Shown: piece by piece, positions 3,047-21,094 of the stretch | How the letters are laid out: each line of letters begins with the position of its first letter | How positions within the stretch are numbered: the stretch's first letter is position 1 | IMG/VR virus record: IMGVR_UViG_3300002144_000188 | Coordinates: 1 to 21,097 of that record | Reading direction: 5' to 3' (one strand) | DNA: 21,097 nt | Source of the DNA: a virus | Position numbers and translations under genes: made by a program | Notes under the pieces: model-generated | The model's input: the letters and a program-made list of their open reading frames with translations, nothing else | Told to the model about the DNA's origin: nothing | Databases searched by the model: none

Positions 3047-3799
3047 TTATACAGTATATCCGTTTTGTTTTAATATATCTCTATATTGTTGATATTGACT
3101 TGCTGCGCTAGAAGATGGTCCCCATTGTCTTTTAGGACCTATATCTATATGCATAAATGAGTCATAACAACCGACGCCGGTAAAACCTGCTGCAATTGCT
3201 TTATTAATCATGTCTATACGTGATTGAACATTAGATGTGCCCCATTGCACGTCGATTGCTTTCTTTTGAACATGCATACTTTTCTTTGCGCCGCCAATTT
3301 TAGAATTGTATTCGGGCGAACGGTATGCACTATTTAAAGTAATAGGTCTGCCTAAACTTTTTGCAAATGATTCAGCTTTGGACCAAACTTCTGGCAACAC
3401 TCGCGGATCTACATGAGATTGAACTACTATCCATTCTGATGTAGGTCTGTCATTAGTAAAGGGAATTGCGCCTTCTTCTTGGGTAGATGCATCGCTACCA
3501 GGAGCAGCGATTGCTCCTGTAGTTCCATCAACCGGATTTATGCCGCCGGGCGATCCTGCGCCAAATTGTTCCAATGCTTCATTTAAATCAGGGTCACGGC
3601 CTGCTGCAATTTCTGATGCTCTTGCTTCTAGTATGCCTCTTGATGCTGCTTCGTCTATACCAATAGCATCAGCTATACCAAGTACAGTTGTAATACTGCC
3701 GCCTAATGTAGGGCCGCCGTTTGCAAAGACGTTTGACGATCCGCCTACTGCTGCATCACCATTTGAATCTGTATCACCTACTCTATGTATTCTTGGCAT
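3047..3799 (-). CDS. PAAR-like spike-tip domain fused to M15-type peptidase
   Basis: The first 30 residues (MPRIHRVGDTDSNGDAAVGG, then SSNVFANGGP) match the opening of PAAR proteins, which cap phage and type VI secretion spikes (T4 gp5.4 is an example); the second half of a classical PAAR repeat is not obvious. Residues 40-120 are a low-complexity linker. Residues 121-250 form a peptidase M15-type domain: NSAYRSPEYNSKIGG, then His176 and Asp183 in MHVQKKAIDVQ, and His217-x-Asp219 in FMHIDIG, the usual zinc-ligand pattern. Such domains cleave stem-peptide bonds in peptidoglycan. I infer a tail-tip wall hydrolase acting at infection. It is last in the late cassette that starts at 5563. An endolysin role is the alternative. 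Confidence 0.82.
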   Translation of the reverse strand: MPRIHRVGDTDSNGDAAVGGSSNVFANGGPTLGGSITTVLGIADAIGIDEAASRGILEARASEIAAGRDPDLNEALEQFGAGSPGGINPVDGTTGAIAAPGSDASTQEEGAIPFTNDRPTSEWIVVQSHVDPRVLPEVWSKAESFAKSLGRPITLNSAYRSPEYNSKIGGAKKSMHVQKKAIDVQWGTSNVQSRIDMINKAIAAGFTGVGCYDSFMHIDIGPKRQWGPSSSAASQYQQYRDILKQNGYTV

Positions 3800-11754: not shown

Positions 11755-12454
11755 CGTTCTGTTCGTAGTATGTATAAACCCTATTGTACCACTCATTACG
11801 CCACTCATCATACTCATGTGGCCACAAATCGAATTGCTGATACGTTTCTCCACCTAATGCCATGCCATCGTCGCCTCTACTACACATAAAGATATGCCCT
11901 TCGCGTATATTAGTTCCAAACATTGCATTATGTGCTTCTGCATATGCTACTAGCTGTAGGAAGTAATTCTGTACATACTCTAATTTCTTAGGCTTATTAG
12001 TTTGCTTGAAGTCAAGAATGCAAGGTTGGCCTTTGTACTGTCCAACTAAGTCAGTAGTACCTGCATACATCTGCGGAACATAAAGAGCAACTTCGCTGCC
12101 CCAGATTTCATCAACATGTACCATTGCATTATCACGCACCTGAACTGCCATTGCGTGTGCTTTGATTGCAAAAGGATTGCCGCCTGGAGTAGGCCAGTCG
12201 CCTGTATCTACGTAGTCTTCAAGATACTTGTGCATCCTTGTTCCTACACCAGCAGCTTCTGTTGTAATTTCTCGTGCTTTAGTTTCACCTACTCGTTTAC
12301 GCCATGCTATAAGTCCGGTCTTGTCGCTAGTAGCGTCAAGAATAGTAGTAACACTTGCAACAGCGTTACCATCAGGTGTCATGTATTTGCGTTTGCCGTC
12401 TACTTCTTTGCGTGATATAGGTTGATAATCGTATTTTTTAGTTATTAGACTCAT
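11750..12454 (-). CDS. PD-(D/E)XK superfamily nuclease (RecB/MGME1-like)
   Basis: A 234-residue protein with the core motifs of this nuclease fold: GTRMHKYLED (His75) near residue 71, a glutamate in GSEVALYVPQ (Glu121), YAGTTDLVG (Asp135), ILDFKQ (Asp148 and Lys150, the D-x-K pair), and QLVAYAEAH (Gln167, the RecB-type QxxxY motif). It probably degrades or processes DNA as a Mg-dependent exonuclease in phage replication or recombination. Only single cysteines are present, so there is no Cas4/AddB-type Fe-S cluster. The start lies inside the end of the NfU gene, a 17-base overlap, implying coupled translation. Confidence 0.88.
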   Translation of the reverse strand: MSLITKKYDYQPISRKEVDGKRKYMTPDGNAVASVTTILDATSDKTGLIAWRKRVGETKAREITTEAAGVGTRMHKYLEDYVDTGDWPTPGGNPFAIKAHAMAVQVRDNAMVHVDEIWGSEVALYVPQMYAGTTDLVGQYKGQPCILDFKQTNKPKKLEYVQNYFLQLVAYAEAHNAMFGTNIREGHIFMCSRGDDGMALGGETYQQFDLWPHEYDEWRNEWYNRVYTYYEQNG

Positions 12455-12791
12455 CTCGATCCTCCGTTATATTTTCCGCTTCCCACGCAGCTTGGCCAAA
12501 TGGGTCATTATTCATATAGTAAGGGTCTACATCTGAGAACGGATCATCAATGCCTTCAACTGCTGTTACTTCAGGAATTAATTGTGTCATCATTTGTTCT
12601 ATGCCATGCTTGAGTGTAGCAGTACTACCAGCACATCCCGAACATGCTCCGCTTAGTTCTACTATTACAACCCCAAGTTCAAAGCTAACAAAGTTAACTT
12701 GGCCACCGTGCTGTGCTACTGATGGTGCTACATATTGTTCCATCACTTCTGTAATGTGTTTAACTATTTCTTCGTACGATCGTTCAGTCAT
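12438..12791 (-). CDS. NfU/NifU C-terminal domain Fe-S scaffold protein
   Basis: A 117-residue protein whose first 80 residues are an NFU domain. A helical start (ERSYEEIVKHITEVMEQYVA) is followed by HGGQVNFVSFE, VVIVELSGACSGCAGS (Cys50-x-x-Cys53, the cluster-binding pair), and a helix with ATLKHGIEQMM. The last 35 residues are an acidic tail (DDPFSDVDPYYMNN). NfU proteins hold a [4Fe-4S] cluster at a dimer interface and pass it to apo-enzymes. In a phage it probably supports a host or phage Fe-S enzyme; the client is unknown. It is the first gene after the promoter at 12813-12841, with AGGAG eight bases before the ATG. Confidence 0.93.
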   Translation of the reverse strand: MTERSYEEIVKHITEVMEQYVAPSVAQHGGQVNFVSFELGVVIVELSGACSGCAGSTATLKHGIEQMMTQLIPEVTAVEGIDDPFSDVDPYYMNNDPFGQAAWEAENITEDRDESNN

Positions 12792-12855: not shown

Positions 12856-13113
12856 TTAAAGTTTTGCACCTACATCAGTTGCACTCTTTGCCATATTAGT
12901 TACTGCGGTTGCATCAGCTGCTGTTGCTGCGGCACCGTCTGCGGCTGCGCCTGTGACATCATCAACTTCGCTTTGTTTTAGTTCAATCTTGGTATTGTCA
13001 AAATTAACAACAAGTTCTTTTAATCTTGGATCAGCATCGTATGCAGCTTTGAATACATCAAAAGTAAATTGACCTTTACCTTGATTCTGCATATACTTGT
13101 CTAGCTTCTTCAT
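12856..13113 (-). CDS. Small conserved phage protein, possibly expressed as a -1 frameshift extension
   Basis: From ATG 13113 the product is 85 residues: MKKLDKYMQNQGKGQFTFDV, a short acidic-basic region (KELVVNFDNTKIELKQSEVDD), then an Ala/Asp/Thr-rich tail. No function is recognised. The start is uncertain. The best ribosome-site match, GGAG, lies 14 bases upstream in the loop of a strong hairpin (13119-13141), too far for normal use. The same frame stays open for 28 more sense codons upstream to the nine-A run ending the gene at 13188-13940, so the protein may also be made by frameshifting from that gene. A GTG at 13128 is a further possible start. Confidence 0.72.
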   Translation of the reverse strand: MKKLDKYMQNQGKGQFTFDVFKAAYDADPRLKELVVNFDNTKIELKQSEVDDVTGAAADGAAATAADATAVTNMAKSATDVGAKL

Positions 13114-13118
13114 AGATA

Positions 13119-13141
13119 AAGCGGCCACTCCGGCCGCTTTT
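13119..13141. terminator. Strong GC hairpin, terminator-like or translation-control element
   Basis: AAAGCGGCC and GGCCGCTTT form a perfect 9-bp stem with a 5-base loop. On the plus strand it is followed by five Ts in total, a rho-independent terminator shape, but no plus-strand gene reads into it. On the minus strand the loop is GGAGT and the stem ends four bases before ATG 13113, with a poor T tract. It may be a weak terminator after 13188-13940 or a structure acting on the start at 13113. Confidence 0.6.
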
Positions 13142-13187
13142 TGTTGTCTTAAAATACTAAAGATAGTTTCAGTATCTACTGATTCAA

Positions 13188-13940
13188 TTACTTTAGCTTT
13201 TTTTTTGAGTGTTGTACCGACTCACGCTTTTCACGGCCTGCTTCTGCTTCGCCGCCTGCTGCTGGCTCAGCTGCACCCATGCCGTCATCTACTGGCATCT
13301 CTGCATCCATATCACCGTCAACTGTTGGTTCCATTGCTGCATCGTCCATACCTGGTTCTTCCGCACCCATTGCTTCTGGTGCGTCGCCTTCTCCAGTTAG
13401 TAGACCTACTCCATCAGTTAGTGCTACACGAGTAGTTTCCATCACGCCATACATTGCTTCTAGTGCCGGCTTAACTGCATTAACAAATGCTTCACTTGCT
13501 GCACTGCCCATCTCGTCGCGGATAGCATCAGCTAGTTCTAGCATTGATTCAGTTTGCATTTCAGCAGTGTCTTCCATCCAACCAGTAACTCGATCAACCA
13601 TGTCCTTAGCTGCCATTACTAGTTCTGCACTGTCTTCTGCGCCTTCATTAACTTGCTCAACTGCTTCGTCAATTGCGTCAGCAATAGAATCGCCACGCTC
13701 TAAAATAGCTGCATTTAGCACATCTAAGAACAGTTTATTCTTTTGATAGCCAGGTGACTGAACAGTATCAAAACTTTCTGTAGTTTGGATTTGGCTCATT
13801 GCAGTTCTAATCTTGTTGCGAGCATCTTGTAGCTGTTCAGTTGTAAAACTGTCAACGTTGATCTTTGTGCCGAACTTTTTAGCTAGGCTTTCGTTTAATT
13901 TTGCTGCCGTAACAGGCTTTGTAAATTCTCTAATGTTCAT
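13188..13940 (-). CDS. Acidic head-core or scaffold-like protein
   Basis: A 250-residue protein beginning MNIREFTKPVTAAKLNES, followed by a helical region with an amphipathic block (ESMLELADAIRDEMGSAASE near residues 134-153). From about residue 185 it is very acidic and rich in Met, Ala, Gly and Asp/Glu, then ends abruptly in a basic tail (GREKRESVQHSKKKLK). No enzyme motif is present. Acidic, helical, low-complexity proteins of this kind are typical of prohead cores, and a GATAAATA late box lies about 32 bases upstream, so a prohead-core or internal head role is inferred. The gene ends in nine A bases containing A_AAA_AAG just before the stop, allowing -1 frameshift into the gene at 12856. 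Confidence 0.75.
   Translation of the reverse strand: MNIREFTKPVTAAKLNESLAKKFGTKINVDSFTTEQLQDARNKIRTAMSQIQTTESFDTVQSPGYQKNKLFLDVLNAAILERGDSIADAIDEAVEQVNEGAEDSAELVMAAKDMVDRVTGWMEDTAEMQTESMLELADAIRDEMGSAASEAFVNAVKPALEAMYGVMETTRVALTDGVGLLTGEGDAPEAMGAEEPGMDDAAMEPTVDGDMDAEMPVDDGMGAAEPAAGGEAEAGREKRESVQHSKKKLK
13197..13206 (-). promoter_or_regulatory. Poly-A slippery site (A_AAA_AAG), candidate -1 frameshift
   Basis: Nine As (13198-13206) precede a G on the minus strand. Zero-frame codons read TCA AAA AAA AAG CTA AAG TAA, so the dnaX-type heptamer A_AAA_AAG is in the correct phase. A -1 shift leads into a frame open through 28 codons to ATG 13113 and on to the stop at 12856, giving a 361-residue fusion. 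Poly-A transcript slippage would have the same result. A single-base sequence error is the alternative. Confidence 0.55.
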
Positions 13941-13980: not shown

Positions 13981-14401
13981 ACGAACCAAATATAAACTTG
14001 TCTAAATTATCTCGGATGCGTCTTGTTTCACGAACTGTCATATCTAAACGTATTTCTCTTATTTCTCTAGTAGCACTATCTTTAGTTGTTTTAATAGTGT
14101 TTCTATAAAACATTGCATCTACAAAATGTTTTTGTAATAAAGTGTCGTATGCTAATACTTGTACTGTAATGTTTCTACCTGCTGCTAGATTCTTAGCAAT
14201 AGCAATTGCAGTTGATTTAAACATTGTACGAGCTACTTGTGTATTTTCTTTTGCATCGTAAATCAAATACCCATTAGGACTCTTACGAATTATAATGTGT
14301 TTGATTCTAATACTGTTGCCTTTTGCCACAGGCAATCCGTCATCTTCGAGGCCTTGCTCGATGATTTCTTCTAGATCATTTATTAATTGTTTAGAGTTCA
14401 T
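13979..14401 (-). CDS. Conserved phage protein, unknown function
   Basis: A 140-residue protein with an acidic helical N-terminus (MNSKQLINDLEEIIEQGLED). A beta-like middle (IRIKHIIIRKSPNGYLIYDA near residues 31-50) carries the conserved-looking NTQVARTMFKSTAIAIAKNL. The C-terminus is long, charged and helical, rich in Arg/Glu (TREIREIRLDMTVRETRRIR). From memory, similar proteins recur in marine T4-like phages without a known role. The start overlaps the end of 14391-14591. It lies just upstream of the core-like gene, among short proteins with capsid-targeting-like N-termini, so a head role is possible. Confidence 0.78.
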   Translation of the reverse strand: MNSKQLINDLEEIIEQGLEDDGLPVAKGNSIRIKHIIIRKSPNGYLIYDAKENTQVARTMFKSTAIAIAKNLAAGRNITVQVLAYDTLLQKHFVDAMFYRNTIKTTKDSATREIREIRLDMTVRETRRIRDNLDKFIFGS

Positions 14402-14591
14402 TACGCATCACCATAACATTTCCGTTGTGTAGTACTTTACTTATTACACTCTTTCGAATTAGGTTATTGATAATGACTTGATCTCGCTCAGTGTATGAGC
14501 TGAGGGGAGCCGTATCAAAAGTTTCCAAGAGTTTTTTTTCCTCGTTGGTCATGTATATTTCAAAACTTTTGATCAGCTCGTTTATTTTCAT
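14391..14591 (-). CDS. Small protein with MKINEL N-terminus, unknown
   Basis: A 66-residue protein: MKINELIKSFEIYMTNEEKK, then a helical region, then TERDQVIINNLIRKSVISKV and a beta-like end (HNGNVMVMRNEL). The second half resembles a small winged-helix-like fold by pattern, but no family is recognised. The first residues share the MK-hydrophobic-x-E-hydrophobic pattern of neighbouring proteins; no clear LxE or IxE cleavage site follows in the first 15 residues. The start overlaps the preceding stop by four bases. Confidence 0.72.
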   Translation of the reverse strand: MKINELIKSFEIYMTNEEKKLLETFDTAPLSSYTERDQVIINNLIRKSVISKVLHNGNVMVMRNEL

Positions 14592-14830
14592 TGTGCTTTT
14601 ACTATTACGTTATCGCCCGGCTTAATGCCACGGTCAACTGAACCTTTAGTTTTTGTATCTAATGTTAGCGTGCCACGTTCATCTTTAGATATAGCGCCTG
14701 GCTTGCTTGGATCTTTAGGAACTGTAGTTGTAATCTTTGTCTTAGGATCAATTAAAATGGTTTGTTTGTCATCGTCTTTTTGAATTTGTAAGACTGCATC
14801 CATCTCTGATAATATTTCATGTATCTTCAT
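14588..14830 (-). CDS. Small protein with capsid-targeting-like N-terminus, unknown
   Basis: An 80-residue protein beginning MKIHEILSEMDAVLQ. The start contains Leu-Ser-Glu at residues 7-9, the type of site the T4 prohead protease gp21 cuts ((L/I)xE), at the position where T4 internal proteins are trimmed. The rest is hydrophilic and beta-like: KQTILIDPKTKITTTVPKDP, a KPG turn, and GIKPGDNVIVKAQ at the end. No enzyme motif. It overlaps both neighbours by four bases in the late run. I infer an internal head protein, at modest confidence. Confidence 0.73.
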   Translation of the reverse strand: MKIHEILSEMDAVLQIQKDDDKQTILIDPKTKITTTVPKDPSKPGAISKDERGTLTLDTKTKGSVDRGIKPGDNVIVKAQ

Positions 14831-15159
14831 ATTCTTCTTCCTTTTGATCCTCTGCGGGCTTTTGGTCTAATCCGCTTATTAATTCTTTTTAACTTTTGAG
14901 TAGTTGGACTTGTTCTACCTGTTCTTGCACGTTTGATATCCATCGTCTTGCCTTTGGATCGTCTTGTCTTCTTAAGAGTATTACTTGCTTTCATATTCAT
15001 AGGTGCAGTACAAGTAGACGGCTTTGCAACAACTCTACCTTTTCTTAACCCGCTTGTGCAACGATACTTTCTAACAGTATGTCCTCTTGTGCCTTTGCGC
15101 TTGCTATGACCAAATGTTGTCATAACACCTTCGTCTAAGAATAGTTCACGTAATAACAT
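14827..15159 (-). CDS. Arg/Lys-rich protamine-like protein, paralogue of the next gene
   Basis: Of 110 residues, about 35 are Lys or Arg. It opens MLLRELFLDEGVMTTF, with Leu-Asp-Glu at residues 8-10 as a possible prohead-protease site. A core VRKYRCTSGLRKGRVVAK near residues 29-46 is shared with the upstream protein, including a Cys and a second Cys about 16 residues on. The C-terminus is a basic tail (INKRIRPKARRGSKGRRI). Such a protein should bind nucleic acid. With the late position and N-terminus, I infer an internal head protein packaged with the DNA. Ribosomal-protein-like composition is the alternative reading, but no such family is matched. Confidence 0.75.
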   Translation of the reverse strand: MLLRELFLDEGVMTTFGHSKRKGTRGHTVRKYRCTSGLRKGRVVAKPSTCTAPMNMKASNTLKKTRRSKGKTMDIKRARTGRTSPTTQKLKRINKRIRPKARRGSKGRRI

Positions 15160-15160
15160 A

Positions 15161-15451
15161 TTACCTGCCTTTCTTATTAAGGCGTTGCACTCTAACAGAA
15201 GCTGGATTGATACGCTTGGTCTTCTTAGATTTACGAATTAGTCTTGCTCCGAGACGTGCTTTAGTACGCTTTAGATTAACACGCTTCTTAATATCAGGTG
15301 CTGCAAAACATTGTGCCATCTTAGCGACTACACGATTCTTACGAGGGCCACTAGAACAACGATACTTTCGCACAATCTTTTTACCGGATCGGGCCCAAGT
15401 CTGTCCTTCTTCTAATTCTGTTTCTTGATTAAATAGCTCACGTAATAACAT
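15161..15451 (-). CDS. Arg/Lys-rich protamine-like protein, paralogue of 14827-15159
   Basis: Of 96 residues, about 30 are Lys or Arg. The N-terminus MLLRELFNQETELEEGQTWA begins with the same seven residues as the neighbour and has Leu-Glu-Glu at 13-15 before Gly, a possible prohead-protease site. The shared core is VRKYRCSSGPRKNRVVAK with a second Cys in QCFAAPD. The tail is KKTKRINPASVRVQRLNKKG. I infer DNA-binding internal head protein. A GATAAATA box ends only five bases before the ATG with no ribosome site between, so the late transcript would be almost leaderless. Confidence 0.77.
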   Translation of the reverse strand: MLLRELFNQETELEEGQTWARSGKKIVRKYRCSSGPRKNRVVAKMAQCFAAPDIKKRVNLKRTKARLGARLIRKSKKTKRINPASVRVQRLNKKGR

Positions 15452-15456
15452 ATAGT

Positions 15457-15464
15457 TATTTATC
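15457..15464 (-). promoter_or_regulatory. Late promoter box GATAAATA immediately before ATG 15451
   Basis: CGATAAATAACTAT runs directly into the ATG on the minus strand. With T4-like geometry transcription would begin at or near the A of the start codon, giving a leaderless message. It overlaps nothing but a short gap. Confidence 0.6.
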
Positions 15465-15470
15465 GTGATG

Positions 15471-15704
15471 TTACGGGTTCATTAAAATAACGATAACAAT
15501 GGATAGTAAACTGGCAACTACTGTGCCTGCTGTGCCGATTAGCACTTTTGTGATTGACTTCTGACCGTTGATCATGTCGTTGTGTATGTTGTCAATTTTT
15601 GTTTCGACTTTGCCTAGGCGACCTTCTAATGCTTCATAGCGTATTGCACATAAGTCGACGTGCGCTTCAAGGTTCGTTTTTTCTAATTCAGTCGTAGCTG
15701 ACAT
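15471..15704 (-). CDS. Coiled coil plus C-terminal membrane helix, holin/XhlA-like
   Basis: A 77-residue protein. Residues 8-50 form a heptad-like helix (EKTNLEAHVDLCAIRYEALE, GRLGKVETKIDNI). Residues 53-75 are one hydrophobic span (KVLIGTAGTVVASLLSIVIV) ending MNP. This layout is that of XhlA/hemolysin-type proteins that work with phage holins and endolysins, so a lysis role is possible; a structural membrane anchor is the alternative. GGAGA precedes the ATG. A late box lies at 15805-15812, leaving an unusually long leader of about 100 bases. Confidence 0.72.
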   Translation of the reverse strand: MSATTELEKTNLEAHVDLCAIRYEALEGRLGKVETKIDNIHNDMINGQKSITKVLIGTAGTVVASLLSIVIVILMNP

Positions 15705-15803
15705 CTTATTCTCCGTAAAACCTACGCTCAGTAGGGTAAAGTAAACTCTGGGTTAGCCTTTGATATGTTTTAAGATGTGCCTGGTAGATTTTAAGCTACA
15801 AAA
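15705..15803 (-). other. Non-coding leader with small dyad
   Basis: About 99 bases without a gene between a late box and the XhlA-like start. It holds a 5-bp inverted repeat, CCTAC and GTAGG at 15721-15735, ending close to the GGAG ribosome site on the transcript. No other structure or conserved motif is apparent. Confidence 0.45.
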
Positions 15804-16199
15804 CTATTTATCATCTTGTTCAAAATATATATTGTTTATAGCCAAATCACAGGTAATGAAACTGTCATTTTTAAATTTAGCAGTTTCGTCTAGTCCACTT
15901 ATAATAGGAACGTATTCAAAATCTGAGATCATTGTTTCTATATTTGTGCCGTCTTGGTATTCAATTTCAAAAACAAATGTCCATACACGGTGCTTGCCTT
16001 TATACTCAGTACCTAAATTAAATGACTTAGGCACTGCTTCTACTACAATCGGAGAAGTGTTGTAACTTGGATTAACTCTAAGACCAATTGTTTGCAACAC
16101 AGTTAAAAAATTCTGTTGTTGACGTACTAGAGTATAGTCATCGCCGCGGCGTGCTTTTGTTTCTGTAATATCTACAAGTGTGTGTAATTTAAATCTCAT
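15804..16199 (-). CDS. Conserved phage protein, unknown (MRFKLHTLVDITET type)
   Basis: A 131-residue protein beginning MRFKLHTLVDITETKARRGD, then a helix (VRQQQNFLTVLQTIGLRVNP), a beta-like section with VWTFVFEIEYQDGTNIE near residues 73-89, and FEYVPIISGLDETAKFK. From memory this is a widespread single-copy protein of marine T4-like phages with no assigned role; a virion role is plausible. A CGTAAATA box ends four bases before the ATG, again with no ribosome site. The gene lies just beyond a strong terminator, so it needs its own promoter. Confidence 0.82.
   Translation of the reverse strand: MRFKLHTLVDITETKARRGDDYTLVRQQQNFLTVLQTIGLRVNPSYNTSPIVVEAVPKSFNLGTEYKGKHRVWTFVFEIEYQDGTNIETMISDFEYVPIISGLDETAKFKNDSFITCDLAINNIYFEQDDK
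15805..15812 (-). promoter_or_regulatory. T4-type late promoter box GATAAATA
   Basis: GATGATAAATAGTTTTG on the minus strand overlaps the stop of the gene at 15804 and lies about 100 bases before the XhlA-like ATG. It fits NATAAATA. Confidence 0.6.
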
Positions 16200-16203
16200 A
16201 CTG

Positions 16204-16211
16204 TATTTACG
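16204..16211 (-). promoter_or_regulatory. Late-like promoter box CGTAAATA before ATG 16199
   Basis: CCGTAAATACAGT runs into ATG 16199 and lies just after the terminator at 16217-16245. It differs from NATAAATA at one position. With transcription starting about six bases on, the message would be leaderless, as at 15457. Confidence 0.5.
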
Positions 16212-16216
16212 GTCAT

Positions 16217-16245
16217 AAAAAAAGGGCCCACTTAAAAGTGAGCCC
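16217..16245 (-). terminator. Rho-independent terminator
   Basis: On the minus strand GGGCTCACTT and AAGTGGGCCC form a 10-position stem with one mismatch and a two-base loop, followed by seven Ts. It lies 37 bases after the stop of 16282-16596 and should end that unit. Confidence 0.92.
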
Positions 16246-16281
16246 AGTGTGCCGAAGCACGGTTCCTAAGGTAGTTAGGAT

Positions 16282-16596
16282 TTAGTCTGTGAACGTTGCA
16301 ACTACTGCCATTGTTACACCAGTTACGCCGCGATAGTTGTCACCAGCTGTTAGTGCGCCTGTGCCTTGTACTGCTACGTGTGCAACGCCTGAACTTGTGT
16401 GAGCAACGCCTGCAATGCTTACTGCATCGTCTGTACCTGCAACGCCGCCTGCAGTCATTGCTGCTACTACTGCGTTAAGATCTGCAATAGCTGTTGTTGT
16501 GATAGCTGTCTTTGATAGCGATAGAATGCGTGTGTTTGGTCCTAGACCGTTACCTGCAATTACGTTTACGCCGTTTACTTTTGTTACTGAAGCCAT
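16282..16596 (-). CDS. Small Ala/Val/Thr/Gly-rich virion protein (decoration-like), single-gene unit
   Basis: A 104-residue protein: MASVTKVNGVNVIAGNGLGP at the start, then a long Ala/Thr/Val-rich beta-like section with AVVAAMTAGGVAGTDDAVSI and HVAVQGTGALTAGDNY, ending VTMAVVATFTD. There are no cysteines and few charges. A late box (16654-16661), a 9-bp leader hairpin (16622-16645), an AGGAG site and a strong terminator frame it alone, which suggests a very abundant late product. I infer a head decoration or other copious structural protein; no family is recognised. Mass spectrometry of virions would decide. Confidence 0.8.
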   Translation of the reverse strand: MASVTKVNGVNVIAGNGLGPNTRILSLSKTAITTTAIADLNAVVAAMTAGGVAGTDDAVSIAGVAHTSSGVAHVAVQGTGALTAGDNYRGVTGVTMAVVATFTD

Positions 16597-16621
16597 TTTA
16601 TATTCTCCTATGATCTAATGG

Positions 16622-16645
16622 CAAGTAAGATTCTCTTCTTACTTG
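16622..16645 (-). other. Leader hairpin, 9-bp perfect stem
   Basis: CAAGTAAGA and TCTTACTTG form a perfect stem around a 6-base loop, placed between the late box at 16654-16661 and the AGGAG site. It lies near the 5' end of the transcript and could protect the mRNA from decay or tune translation. No T tract follows, so it is not a terminator. Confidence 0.7.
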
Positions 16646-16653
16646 TATAATAT

Positions 16654-16661
16654 TATTTATC
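16654..16661 (-). promoter_or_regulatory. T4-type late promoter box GATAAATA
   Basis: AATGATAAATAATATTATAC on the minus strand, about 57 bases before ATG 16596. It fits NATAAATA and lies upstream of a leader hairpin. Confidence 0.7.
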
Positions 16662-16683
16662 ATTTACAGCAAAATAACTATTT

Positions 16684-17625
16684 TTATTTGCGGTTTTTGG
16701 CTCTCAAATGTAGTGCTCTTAGGTTCTGTACATATGCAGGGCCTGCTTTTACAATATCGTCAAGCAATTCGATTGCTGGCAAATATGCTTGTACCATGTT
16801 AGAGCTTGCTGCTTTACCGTCTTTAGCTTGTTCTAAGAACTTCTTAACCAGCGCTAAGTTCTTATCACCTACCAAATAACGATATAGTGCTAAGTCGCTT
16901 TGTCGTGTGCTAATGTCCGGAGTCGATACTGTGGGTTCAGGGTCGTTAGCACTTGCTGTTTCCATGTTCTTGACAGCAGCAAACTTTTCAAAGTCTTCGA
17001 TGATGTCTGAACTACGCAGTTTAGCACGAACAGCAAATATCAAACGTGTAGCAAGTAAACGCTTTTCTGATCTAGTTAACTTATTCCATTCGCTTAAACT
17101 TCTACGCACTGCCTTGTAGTCAGTGTTAGTAATGTTAATTGCATTTTCAATCCCGACAAACATTTTAGCAACTAACGCAGGCTCGCTGCCATTTGCTAAA
17201 CTTCTAAGGTATCTATTAATATCAGCAGTAGGCAATCGTGTCTTTGCTTTGAGTATTTCTGCTGACTCTGGATCTTTTAACTTTGCTTGTGCGGCAGAAT
17301 CGCCTGCTAAGAAATAGATAAAATTATACAAATCAGTACCCATAATGCGATAGTACTTGTATGTTTCAAACCCTACAGTTTTCTTTGCATATCTTTGTAC
17401 ATATCCATTAAAGTCTGGAAACTGTCGCATAGTTTCTAAAGCTAACAACGTCAAGTACATTCTTTCGCCTGCATCAGTATATGTCAACTTCTTGGAGTTG
17501 CCATTGTCTTTGGTCATGCGTGACTCATATAAGTCTTGTAGGAACGAGAACTTAGGTTCAGATGGCGTTATATCGTGCCCACCTTCCATTGCTGCCCATT
17601 CTGATGCTGTGTACTTGTCAGTCAT
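16684..17625 (-). CDS. Large helical phage protein, unknown function
   Basis: A 313-residue, mostly helical, charged protein without membrane spans. It opens MTDKYTASEWAAMEGGHDIT, has FSFLQDLYESRMTK near residues 26-39 with a possible LxE site (Leu-Tyr-Glu 32-34), then a helical region through LALETMRQFPDFNGYVQRYA and SEWNKLTRSEKRLLATRLIF. A linker near 220-235 (NDPEPTVSTPDIST) divides off a C-terminal helical domain. No catalytic motif is visible. It is transcribed with the nucleotidyltransferase-like genes upstream, three bases after the stop of 17628-17957. Virion role possible but unproven. Confidence 0.8.
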   Translation of the reverse strand: MTDKYTASEWAAMEGGHDITPSEPKFSFLQDLYESRMTKDNGNSKKLTYTDAGERMYLTLLALETMRQFPDFNGYVQRYAKKTVGFETYKYYRIMGTDLYNFIYFLAGDSAAQAKLKDPESAEILKAKTRLPTADINRYLRSLANGSEPALVAKMFVGIENAINITNTDYKAVRRSLSEWNKLTRSEKRLLATRLIFAVRAKLRSSDIIEDFEKFAAVKNMETASANDPEPTVSTPDISTRQSDLALYRYLVGDKNLALVKKFLEQAKDGKAASSNMVQAYLPAIELLDDIVKAGPAYVQNLRALHLRAKNRK

Positions 17626-17627
17626 TA

Positions 17628-17957
17628 TTAATAATCTTCTGGCTCTTCATCAGGAACCTCTGCACCTTTGCGCACAGGTCCTGCTGATTTTAATTGTGCT
17701 TGTGCTTTCTGTAGCAAGCCTTGAATAACCTTTGGATTTAATCCAGTTTTCTTAACCACGTCTTGCAAATTCTTAGGACCAAATGCTGCGCCGTATTGTG
17801 TTAGTGTATCGCCCAACTTACTCATGTTGTTTGACTCTTCATCATCTTTGTTAGTAATTGCCATGTCCATTAGTGTACGTCCAATTTCTGATAGCTGACG
17901 TTGTTGTGTTGTCATTTCAGTTTCGACTACTGGTTCTGTTACTTCATTAATTTTCAT
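17628..17957 (-). CDS. Small helical protein with MKINEV N-terminus, unknown
   Basis: A 109-residue protein: MKINEVTEPVVETEMTTQQR at the start, a helical region (SEIGRTLMDMAITNKDDEES), a section with NLQDVVKKTGLNPKVIQGLL that resembles a helix-turn-helix-like pair, and an acidic tail (EVPDEEPEDY). The start matches the MK-hydrophobic-x-E pattern of nearby genes, but there is no clean LxE or IxE in the first 15 residues. AAGGA precedes the ATG. No family is recognised. Confidence 0.77.
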   Translation of the reverse strand: MKINEVTEPVVETEMTTQQRQLSEIGRTLMDMAITNKDDEESNNMSKLGDTLTQYGAAFGPKNLQDVVKKTGLNPKVIQGLLQKAQAQLKSAGPVRKGAEVPDEEPEDY

Positions 17958-17968
17958 TTTGTATTTCC

Positions 17969-19111
17969 TTATCTAGTTGCAGCACGGTTAGCTGCTGAGA
18001 ATGTAGAGCGAGGTACTAATTTAATGTCGCCGCCCGGGTGTGCTAACACATAGCCTTCGCCACCTGCTTGCCCGCCTATACTTTGTTTAACATCTCCGCC
18101 TTGTGCATCAATGCTTGCAATAATTTGATCTTTAGCTTGCATTAGTGTGCTTACAGTTTCCCACAGCGCTTTCCAGCCAGCTTGATTTGCCTTAATATAA
18201 TCTAATACTTTAATCTTTTTCTTGTCGCTTACTTTAGAAGTACTTAACCATTTAGAAAAGTCACCGCCTATATTAGTGAGGCCAGAATCAACTTTAGAGT
18301 TTGTGTAAGTATAAAGTATTTGTGCAAAGTCGCTCATTTGTTGTTGTTGTAGTGTAGCTTTGTTTAACAATTGATCAATGCCTGCCGCATCTTTTTTAAC
18401 AACTGCTTCAACTCTATCTAATACATCGCTTGGTACTTCTGGCGCTTGTGAAGTAGTAACAGGTGGTACAACTAATACGTCTTTACCTTGGAATATGTCT
18501 GCATCCTGTAGTGGACTTTCAGTACCGTCTGCTGCAACTTGTCTGTGGATAACGACTCCAGTTTTAGATGCTCCAATACGCTTACCTAAGTCGGAGTTCA
18601 CATCAACTGCGTACTCAACAATGTTAGGTTTGAAAACATAGTTCTGTTCTTTAACAGCCGGAGTGTTATAATATAACAAATCGCCTTTGAACAATCCTCT
18701 ATAGTCTTCTGGTACTGCTGCTTCAAACAATGGAAATATACCCTTCATGCTTGATGCAAATGCAACATACCCTGGATTTTCTCTGTTCTTGCCACCACTT
18801 CGATTTAAGAACATCTGTTCTAGATCGTCTGCGCTCTTTGATTTGCCGTCGTATCCTTTTGCACCAAAGCCACTTTTGTCTGTAAGGATAAACTCGCCAT
18901 TCTCATCGCGACCAAATATGATAGCAGGGCTACCATCCCACTTAATAGTAACATCCTTATGTCCTCCGTCTGCTAGCTTACGCAAGCTCTCTAGTACTCG
19001 TAATGCTCCGGCACTGCCTTCCCAGAATATAACATCTTCTGCGTGTTGTATACGTGCTTCGGCTTCCTTTATAGGAAACTTGATTACATTTTTAAATTCG
19101 TTGAACTTCAT
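17969..19111 (-). CDS. Ligase-like adenylation-motif protein with capsid-targeting-like N-terminus
   Basis: A 380-residue protein. KWDG at 57-60 (VTIKWDGSPAIIFGR) matches nucleotidyl-transfer motif I of ATP-dependent DNA and RNA ligases. FKGDLLYY near 141-148 resembles motif III, EGYVLAHPGG at 352-361 motif IV, and IKLV with Lys364 motif V. A helical stretch near 225-340 lies between III and IV, longer than in ordinary ligases, and the usual C-terminal OB domain is absent. The start MKFNEFKNVIKFPIKEAEAR has Ile-Lys-Glu at 14-16 before Ala, a possible prohead-protease site. I recall homologues in marine T4-like phages as an uncharacterised family. Ligase activity is inference from motifs. AGGAG precedes the ATG, which overlaps the upstream stop. 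Confidence 0.78.
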   Translation of the reverse strand: MKFNEFKNVIKFPIKEAEARIQHAEDVIFWEGSAGALRVLESLRKLADGGHKDVTIKWDGSPAIIFGRDENGEFILTDKSGFGAKGYDGKSKSADDLEQMFLNRSGGKNRENPGYVAFASSMKGIFPLFEAAVPEDYRGLFKGDLLYYNTPAVKEQNYVFKPNIVEYAVDVNSDLGKRIGASKTGVVIHRQVAADGTESPLQDADIFQGKDVLVVPPVTTSQAPEVPSDVLDRVEAVVKKDAAGIDQLLNKATLQQQQMSDFAQILYTYTNSKVDSGLTNIGGDFSKWLSTSKVSDKKKIKVLDYIKANQAGWKALWETVSTLMQAKDQIIASIDAQGGDVKQSIGGQAGGEGYVLAHPGGDIKLVPRSTFSAANRAATR

Positions 19112-19995
19112 CTGTTAAATGCTCCTGAGATCATTACACTACTATTCAACAACGAACCTGTTAATGCTTTGATTCTTGCTAGTTGCTTATCTTCTAAAGA
19201 CTCAACTTGTGCTTCATTTGCTTTAGGTAGTTCTTTACCATCCTTAGCAAGACTATCTCTTGCTGCTGATATTAGCTTTTCGTATTCTGGCAACTTTTTA
19301 ATAACTGCTAGGATACTTTCTACAGTTCTCGTATCTCTTTCAGTAGCATTACTGCCTAACAATACGTTTGCAATTTCGTTCCAATCATCTGCAACAACTG
19401 TATCGCCGTTAGCAGGATCAACTACACCAAACTTAGGACTAAACTTTAGATTTCGAGCTCTTGCAATGCTAGCCAGTACCAACATTCTATCTTTACCACT
19501 GTATTGCTCAGTGCCGCCTCGCTTGCTACCTTGTTGGAATTTAGGATTGTCAGTAAACATAAAGTCTGTTTGAACATATCCGTTTTTTGCATTACCGTTA
19601 ATAGGTGTTCTAAAGTGAACTTGATCGCCGGCATCACGAATCCAGCCGTCGGGCTTCTTCATAATGTCTGCTTCTACAATGCCTTGACTCTTTAGCCAAG
19701 CACTTAGTTTAGCAATGATGTCTTGCTTGCTTACTTTGTTTAAGTCAGTGTTTAGATCCAAGTCGCCGGAACTGTTCTTTTCAAACGTGCCGTCTGGATT
19801 TGATTTGCGACCTGTTGTTCCTAGATAAGCTGCTGGTCTTGCATCGTCATCTTTTTCACTCTGCCAATCGTATCCTGTAATCTTTTCTAAGAACGCAACT
19901 GTGCTATCTACATCACCTGTGGCAATGCGTGTTGTTAATGGGCCGTCAGCGCTTTTAAAAACGTTCCCGCCTTCTTTAAGATAGGTCATTGTCAT
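19108..19995 (-). CDS. Pol-beta-like nucleotidyltransferase-fold protein
   Basis: Started at ATG 19995, eight bases after GAAGG; the TTG five codons upstream lies at that site and is unlikely. The 295-residue product opens MTMTYLKEGGNVFKS, with Leu-Lys-Glu at 6-8 as a possible prohead-protease site. LGTTGRKS near 58-65 and SSGDLDLNTD with Asp78 and Asp80, then YVQTDFMF with Asp144, form the glycine and three-carboxylate pattern of Pol-beta-type nucleotidyltransferases. Substrate unknown; tRNA- or protein-modifying relatives are possibilities. A helical C-terminal domain follows (near 205-285). It precedes the ligase-like gene, overlapping by four bases, so the two are probably used together. 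Confidence 0.8.
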   Translation of the reverse strand: MTMTYLKEGGNVFKSADGPLTTRIATGDVDSTVAFLEKITGYDWQSEKDDDARPAAYLGTTGRKSNPDGTFEKNSSGDLDLNTDLNKVSKQDIIAKLSAWLKSQGIVEADIMKKPDGWIRDAGDQVHFRTPINGNAKNGYVQTDFMFTDNPKFQQGSKRGGTEQYSGKDRMLVLASIARARNLKFSPKFGVVDPANGDTVVADDWNEIANVLLGSNATERDTRTVESILAVIKKLPEYEKLISAARDSLAKDGKELPKANEAQVESLEDKQLARIKALTGSLLNSSVMISGAFNR

Positions 19996-20245
19996 TCTTT
20001 TTACCTTCAATTATTCTACTCATACTTCGGCGGAACTTTTTTGGATCGCCACTCTTGATTGAGTTAATGAATCGCCGCTCAAGTTCTGATGCAGTTTCTA
20101 CATCATATTGACCGTGTAGCCGACTTAATAAGTTTATTGCACTTTCAATAATATTGTTGGCAGTTGAATCAATCAATAGATCGTTATCACGCTTGCCGTG
20201 GACATTATTAAGTTCTTCTAAAATGCTTCTAGTCTTTTTTCTCAT
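19976..20245 (-). CDS. Small conserved phage protein, unknown
   Basis: An 89-residue charged helical protein: MRKKTRSILEELNNVHGKRD, then NIIESAINLLSRLHGQYDVE, a basic section ERRFINSIKSGDPKKFRRSM, and an EGKKNDNDLS end. From memory, proteins beginning MRKKTRSILEEL are widespread in marine T4-like phages; no function is known. The ribosome site is weak. It is the first minus-strand gene, divergent from the lipase, and its end overlaps the nucleotidyltransferase start by 20 bases. Confidence 0.8.
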   Translation of the reverse strand: MRKKTRSILEELNNVHGKRDNDLLIDSTANNIIESAINLLSRLHGQYDVETASELERRFINSIKSGDPKKFRRSMSRIIEGKKNDNDLS

Positions 20246-20329: not shown

Positions 20330-21094
20330 ATGGGCATTAAAGATTTAAATTTCAAAGAACGTTCCTTGTTGTTTGCAAAACTTGCGAGTATTGCTTATAA
20401 TAACTTGAAAGAAGCAAAAAGTCAAGCAAAGAGTTTAGGATTTACAACTACAGAGTTTTATGATAAAGATGGTGCTCAAGCATACCGCTTCATGAACAAA
20501 GAAGATTTAGTCATTGCATGTCGCGGCACAGAGCCTACACAGTTTAATGACATTGCTGCGGATCTAAGAGCAATACCTGTAGTTGCAGAAACTATCAGTA
20601 GAGTACACAAAGGCTTCAAAGCAGAAGTAGATGAATTGTGGCCAATGATATGCGACGACCTAGTTCGTACAGTTAATCAAGGCAAAGCAGTTTGGTTCTG
20701 TGGACACAGTCTAGGAGCAGCAATGGCAACTATCATGGCCAGTCGTTGTATGTTCTACGCAAGTGTTCCTAATCCGGTAGAGCTTTACACATTTGGATCG
20801 CCACGTGTTGGTTGGCCCAAGTATGTTAAGAGCTTAGGTGTAGTGCATCATCGTTGGAAGAACAACAACGATATCGTTACAACTGTTCCTCCTGCGTTCT
20901 TAGGGTTTAGACATCACGGTACACAACACTATCTAAATGCCTACGGACAAGTTCGTAACCCAACTGGATGGCAGATGGTCAAAGACAAGTGGCGTGGTAT
21001 ATGGATGGGACTAAAGCAAGGTAAGGTAGATAGCTTTGGTGATCATTCAATGGATGAATACATCAAGCACCTTGAAGCAGCATTAACCGAATAA
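20330..21094 (+). CDS. Class 3 lipase (alpha/beta hydrolase)
   Basis: A 254-residue protein with lipase-3 features: ACRGTEPTQFNDIAADL near residues 63-79, the nucleophile elbow WFCGHSLGAAMA with Ser127, FGSPRVG near 155-161, Asp181 in NNNDIVTTVPP, and a probable catalytic His239 in GDHSMDEYIKHL. The order and spacing are those of fungal-type class 3 lipases and their phage relatives. It may act on host membrane lipids during lysis or on phospholipid at entry; no signal peptide is present, so export would need another route. It is the only plus-strand gene, with a good GAAGGGG site and a late-like AATAAATA box. It ends just before the window edge. Confidence 0.92.
   Translation: MGIKDLNFKERSLLFAKLASIAYNNLKEAKSQAKSLGFTTTEFYDKDGAQAYRFMNKEDLVIACRGTEPTQFNDIAADLRAIPVVAETISRVHKGFKAEVDELWPMICDDLVRTVNQGKAVWFCGHSLGAAMATIMASRCMFYASVPNPVELYTFGSPRVGWPKYVKSLGVVHHRWKNNNDIVTTVPPAFLGFRHHGTQHYLNAYGQVRNPTGWQMVKDKWRGIWMGLKQGKVDSFGDHSMDEYIKHLEAALTE

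Follow-up and report, generated by a model that had tools for sequence, protein, structure and literature searches.

A run of nine As close to the end of a virus gene, called A here, very probably acts as a programmed -1 slippage site, from which a minority A-B fusion would be made that carries the following reading frame, B, into the phage head on the leader of A. The comparative evidence strongly supports the programmed -1 fusion. The site, its frame, its strong conservation, its mutual exclusion with a stand-alone B gene, the repeated switching between these two states and a conserved RNA structure are all directly seen in the comparison; from the sequences we infer slippage in vivo, its level and the delivery to the head.

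The slip site and two gene arrangements

The window is the whole 21,097-nt stretch of DNA that was analysed, and its features are collected in Table 1. ORF A ends with TCA AAA AAA AAG CTA AAG TAA, and the A9 in it is the longest homopolymer of the window. If one base is read again at the slip site, translation continues as AKVIESVDTETIFSILRQQK... to the stop at 12856 and the product has 361 aa. A sequence-only reading of this DNA had proposed such an arrangement, and its coordinates, the in-phase A_AAA_AAG, the open -1 frame into ORF B and the length of the product all agree with ours.

Table 1. Features of the slippage locus in the window
Feature	Position	Strand	Remark
ORF A, 250 aa	13188..13940	-	ORF list/translation, tblastn, PHROG match, structure model
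Candidate capsid-targeting leader of A, MNIREFTKPVTAAKLNE	13890..13940	-	ends in an L-x-E prohead-protease-type motif
A9 slippage run	13198..13206	-	read from sequence
Slippery heptamer A_AAA_AAG, in phase with ORF A	13197..13203	-	in-phase A_AAA_AA[A/G] in 80/80 representatives
0-frame stop TAA of ORF A	13188..13190	-	7 nt past the run in the window; 1 nt in 52/80 relatives
V-I-E directly past the slip site	13183..13191	-	candidate protease site and remnant of an old leader of B
-1 extension B, 113 codons and stop	12856..13197	-	predicted winged-helix-like domain, then conserved MAK.AT motif
Proximal RNA structure directly past the A run	13156..13197	-	moderate support; position general, sequence variable
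Distal hairpin AAAGCGGCC-GGAGT-GGCCGCTTT	13118..13140	-	9 bp; conserved in the window's subclade

Is this arrangement kept in other phages? To collect relatives, IMG/VR was scanned with A, B and their profiles, the GTDB genomes were scanned once, and the loci were classified by script. The 268 loci with a whole junction were reduced to 101 representatives more than 8% apart in nucleotides (<92% nt identity). In 80 of them, called F-type, gene A ends in a run of As (A9 in 75, A8 in three, A10 in two) and reading in the -1 frame meets no stop before the conserved B domain. The other 21, called S-type, have no A run of seven or longer, and here B stands as a gene by itself: it starts at its own ATG, 1-13 nt past the A stop and often preceded by GGA, and has a leader like those for capsid targeting. 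All scans together gave 279 F and 68 S loci, where one contig may recur in several scans; A9 was found in 269 of the 279, and no in-frame A-B fusion was found among the 279 F and 68 S loci. Thus alignment of homologues, which the sequence-only reading had named as the check, shows the A run and the -1 overlap conserved in 80 of 80 F-type lineages. Separate genes with an own start for B, which it had held to speak against the frameshift, do exist in 21 lineages, but all of these are without the A run, so that they represent an alternative state and not a refutation.

The group is a large one of uncultivated marine relatives of giant phages, and no report of the A9 slip site was found in the open-access papers searched. 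The same A9 site is also carried by two MAG contigs, one of 335 kb binned with Neomarinimicrobiota (L372) and one of 30 kb with Rickettsiales (L373). Both are probably phage contigs, and the binning is possibly a hint of the host.

Translation of B and RNA structure near the site

Could B be translated without A? In B, conservation of the -1 frame sets in at the slip site, and the third codon position is the most variable one; this holds for the first 20 codons too (0.27, 0.24, 0.44). The 80 F-type representatives share no conserved start codon for B. The first Met in the -1 frame is scattered among relatives from codon 12 to 95, often within the conserved domain, and therefore B generally cannot start alone. 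In the window, GGAG stands 14 nt from the ATG, and we agree with the earlier reading that ORF B has no good ribosome site. One alternative is that B is made separately, by termination and reinitiation at a start near the end of A, with the A run serving as an A-rich translation enhancer. GTG, a possible start codon for B, lies directly past the run and overlaps the TGA stop of A in 10 F-type lineages, and S-type B begins just past the stop of A. However, the other 70 of the 80 F-type lineages have a non-start codon there (GTA, GCT, GTC or other), a Shine-Dalgarno sequence is absent, the place of the first in-frame Met varies and is frequently within the domain, and conservation of the -1 frame extends upstream of any start. 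We consider reinitiation improbable. Conserved coding in the -1 frame, direct from the slip site and with no start codon, is what programmed -1 ribosomal frameshifting calls for, and the F-type relatives show it. To a gene finder B is a truncated ORF, and it is an unannotated protein in hundreds of viral contigs.

Does RNA structure accompany the site? The 50 nt past the run fold with a mean z of -1.72 against shuffles, while other offsets give -0.1 to -0.5. The folding z of S-type loci around the B start is nearly equal (-1.49), and the structure directly past the run is not specific to the slippage type. For the subclade of the window, a 15-pair proximal stem is paired in 75% of cells versus 30-52% when slid; its covariation by counting is moderate, and RNAalifold gives it only 5 consensus pairs. 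An SD-like stimulator upstream of the site was found in only one of the 80 F-type representatives. In seven S-type loci (L118, L120, L224, L232, L236, L246 and L247) a hairpin right past the stop of A encloses the start codon of B, for example GGATACAAAATGAAGGTATCC, which suggests translational coupling of B to A in phages with stand-alone B.

Across 31 distinct sequences the distal hairpin has 99.6% of cells paired, and its covariation is 0.208 versus 0.086 in shuffles (0/500), with compensatory changes at Ala codons from GCG/GCC to GCA/GCT. By this comparison of relatives, it is under selection for RNA structure within the coding region of B. It is located 50-59 nt past the run, which is too far for a classical stimulator. 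Thus the downstream hairpin to which the sequence-only reading had pointed is real and conserved with compensatory changes, but only in the window's subclade and beyond the distance of a classical stimulator. Candidate roles for it are attenuator, pausing, partial termination, and mRNA barrier or protection; it is a possible intrinsic terminator on the coding strand, with UUUAUCU as the U-tract. The peptide KAAGVAALS at this place is nearly invariant in the subclade, and the residues of other clades are unrelated.

Relatives, leaders and likely destination of A and B

What kind of proteins are A and B? The model of A shows an all-helical body with a disordered acidic tail, both predicted, and in PHROGs A matches phrog_14154, head and packaging (E 1.4e-10). 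By tblastn and shared gene order it is a relative of the virion structural protein GAP32_293 / CBB_298, and its cultured kin are Rak2/GAP32-like jumbo phages, Atu_ph07 and Phosso, found only by tblastn with the A core of a divergent relative; the full A-B fusion gave no match by tblastn against INPHARED. Mass spectrometry of CBB virions detected 10 peptides of CBB_298 (35.8% coverage) and 2 peptides of CBB_299 (20%) (PMC5259590 Table 4), the former being the homologue of A and the latter the gene in the position of B. The GAP32 order 293-294-exonuclease-nrdA-nrdB matches the window. For B, hhalign with GAP32_294 gave E values of 0.056 and 0.29; these are not significant, so that the link is based on gene position and architecture, and position, leader and C-terminal motif do agree. 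The pairs GAP32_293/_294 and CBB_298/_299 thus share with the window an A homologous by sequence, a gene in the place of B and the order to the exonuclease and nrdA/nrdB, while differing in being two separate genes with SD and ATG and without the A run. B had no reliable match in Pfam and PHROGs. Its model (pLDDT 71) is H-E-H-H-E-E and winged-helix-like, and the fold search gave weak winged-helix matches (best PDB E 0.049, viral 2.3e-3), from which no function was found.

Other genes of the window were noticed along the way. A NifU-domain gene (12438-12791; PF01106, E 8.2e-23) stands between B and the exonuclease and is absent there in GAP32; a strong promoter-like site, TTGACA-17-TATTAT, lies just upstream of it (12841-12813). 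Pfam also identifies a serine hydroxymethyltransferase (847-1992), an M15 peptidase (3047-3799) and a class 3 lipase (20330-21094).

In the leader of A, MNIREF..LNE, residues L15, N16 and E17 are invariant in 17 aligned relatives, and cleavage would be expected at this LNE. Past the slip site, [VIL]xE occurs within 6 residues in 80 of 80 F-type representatives versus 0.4% of background windows, and all 21 S-type B leaders have [VIL]xE as well. The hydrophobic residue of the motif is mostly forced, since the overlapping stop reads xTA or xTG in the -1 frame; the glutamate is not imposed by the overlapping 0-frame stop. The T4 protease gp21 cleaves head proteins behind L/I-X-E, and in internal proteins the N-terminal leader is a capsid targeting sequence (PMC9026906). 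Similar to the T4 internal proteins with such a gp21-cut sequence (PMC9026906), A and stand-alone B have short N-terminal [LI]xE leaders; the difference is that B of the F-type lacks an N-terminal leader, and that for A and B cleavage and targeting are predicted from motifs. A Peptidase_S77 gene (gp21-type, E 8.5e-27) was found in a 357-kb relative with the slippage site, and none in five other records searched, which are apparently fragments. On these motifs, A and A-B would be head proteins delivered on the leader of A, and a T4-gp21-type protease may cut after [VIL]xE and free B. A row of small proteins on the minus strand of the window (14391-20245) begins with MKINEL, MKIHEIL, MLLRELF, MKINEV, MKFNEF..IKE and MRKKTRSILEE; these leaders resemble those for capsid targeting, and the row is possibly a cassette of internal head proteins.

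A different assignment would make A and A-B a tail assembly chaperone pair of the gpG/gpGT type, which follows the same logic: a short gene with structural genes downstream of it and -1 slippage close to its end. It is contradicted by CBB_298 and CBB_299 being in mature virions (PMC5259590), by neighbours that are nrdA/nrdB, a nuclease and leader-bearing small proteins with no tape measure gene adjacent, and by the LNE leader of A. This assignment is very unlikely, and the destination we favour for A and A-B remains the head.

Conservation of the A run, probable routes of slippage and the switch between states

How special is the run of nine As? In 730 kb of the relatives' DNA there are 12 runs of at least nine A/T outside the site, while at the site such a run is found in 77 of 80. 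The count of nine As persists in two codon phases and whether G or C comes next: in two F-type loci (L275, L279) A9 is followed by C (AAA AAA AAC). AAA AAA AAC is a poorer ribosomal heptamer in E. coli. An A stands before the minimal run in 75 of 80, versus 0.67 expected for TCN codons (binomial 8e-9, a test which ignores relatedness). Run length is identical in 66 of 66 distinct F pairs with near-identical junctions (≥93%), which excludes sequencing error and argues against phase variation in the DNA. In the latter case, replication slippage at A9, a kind of run that can be hypermutable, would turn B on in some genomes; against this, in-frame variants number 0 in 279 loci and length differences 0 in the 66 pairs, and we give it hardly any weight. 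Error in assembly or homopolymer calling, which the sequence-only reading had listed as an alternative and under which the real genes would be fused in frame, has a basis in homopolymers of nine being error-prone in some sequencing chemistries, but it is already refuted by the comparison, given A9 in 269 of 279 loci, which come from many independent metagenomes and two MAG contigs, A8 and A10 forms likewise out of frame, no in-frame fusion, and agreement of all near-identical pairs.

Is it then the RNA polymerase or the ribosome that slips? In bacteria, transcription slippage typically sets in at nine As, and it is at this length that selection against it becomes visible in many of them; eight As are described as non-slippery (PMC1088944). 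Few heptamers make E. coli ribosomes slip as efficiently as A_AAA_AAG (PMC4066793). In 77 of the 80 F-type representatives the run is A9 or A10, at least the nine A/T of transcription slippage and conserved past the need of the heptamer. The three A8 lineages still keep A_AAA_AAG, which argues against transcription slippage as the sole route. The odds on which of the two is the main route are roughly even, and from the sequences both are likely to contribute.

Known systems offer partial parallels. Thermus thermophilus dnaX and the bacterial IS elements with transcriptional slippage on A9 (Baranov et al. 2005, PMC1088944) likewise have exactly nine As, a conserved overlapping frame and two products per gene; here the gene is for a phage virion protein, the extension is stand-alone in sister lineages, a downstream hairpin is conserved, and mRNA heterogeneity is a prediction from the DNA. 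With E. coli dnaX and IS911-type frameshifting (PMC4066793) the site shares the in-phase A_AAA_AAG, structured RNA after it in most lineages and a stop close behind, and it differs in the extension of the run to A9, the rarity of an upstream SD-like element and the remote position of the distal hairpin. The head proteins of Lactobacillus phage A2 and phage T3 (reviewed in PMC5009743) are also structural proteins with a minority C-terminal extension by -1 frameshifting; their extension is Ig-like, while that of A is winged-helix-like and exists in relatives as a leader-bearing separate gene, and as far as tested A is distinct from the major capsid protein.

Is there any sign of how the two states are related? 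On the tree of A core and B there are 4 changes between F and S, at least 2 of them forced by starred branches. The states thus interchange repeatedly on the tree, which does not settle the direction of change. In several F-type phages the linker is VRISEV or VRINEV, to be compared with the leader MRVSEI of S-type relatives; the post-slip VRISE aligns with MRVSE, and by this match the F-type linker looks like a remnant of the leader of B that has lost its start codon. A broken run, TCAAAAAAGAAATAG, is seen in the S-type L246.

The scenario we propose is as follows. Most transcripts and ribosomes would give protein A. In a minority, a -1 shift would arise when the RNA polymerase adds an A, the ribosome slips at A_AAA_AAG, or both, and the product would be A-B, with winged-helix-like B following on the flexible acidic tail of A. 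A-B would enter the head on the leader of A, and a protease cut past [VIL]xE would release B. The fusion by slippage would so take the place of a separate B gene that has a targeting leader, and the low ratio of B to A would be fixed. As a more tentative extension, which we think somewhat less probable than its opposite, A9 may be an evolutionary switch in head building: it would replace the leader and start of B, only a set fraction of A molecules would bring B into the prohead, and the protease would release it at the linker, the states having been swapped several times.

The finding presents a strongly conserved recoding event in a widespread group of uncultivated giant phages, together with a natural control in sister lineages without the site, by which one can test both the mechanism and whether two products are needed. 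It also suggests a route by which a protein may be brought into the phage head at a fixed ratio without a targeting signal of its own.
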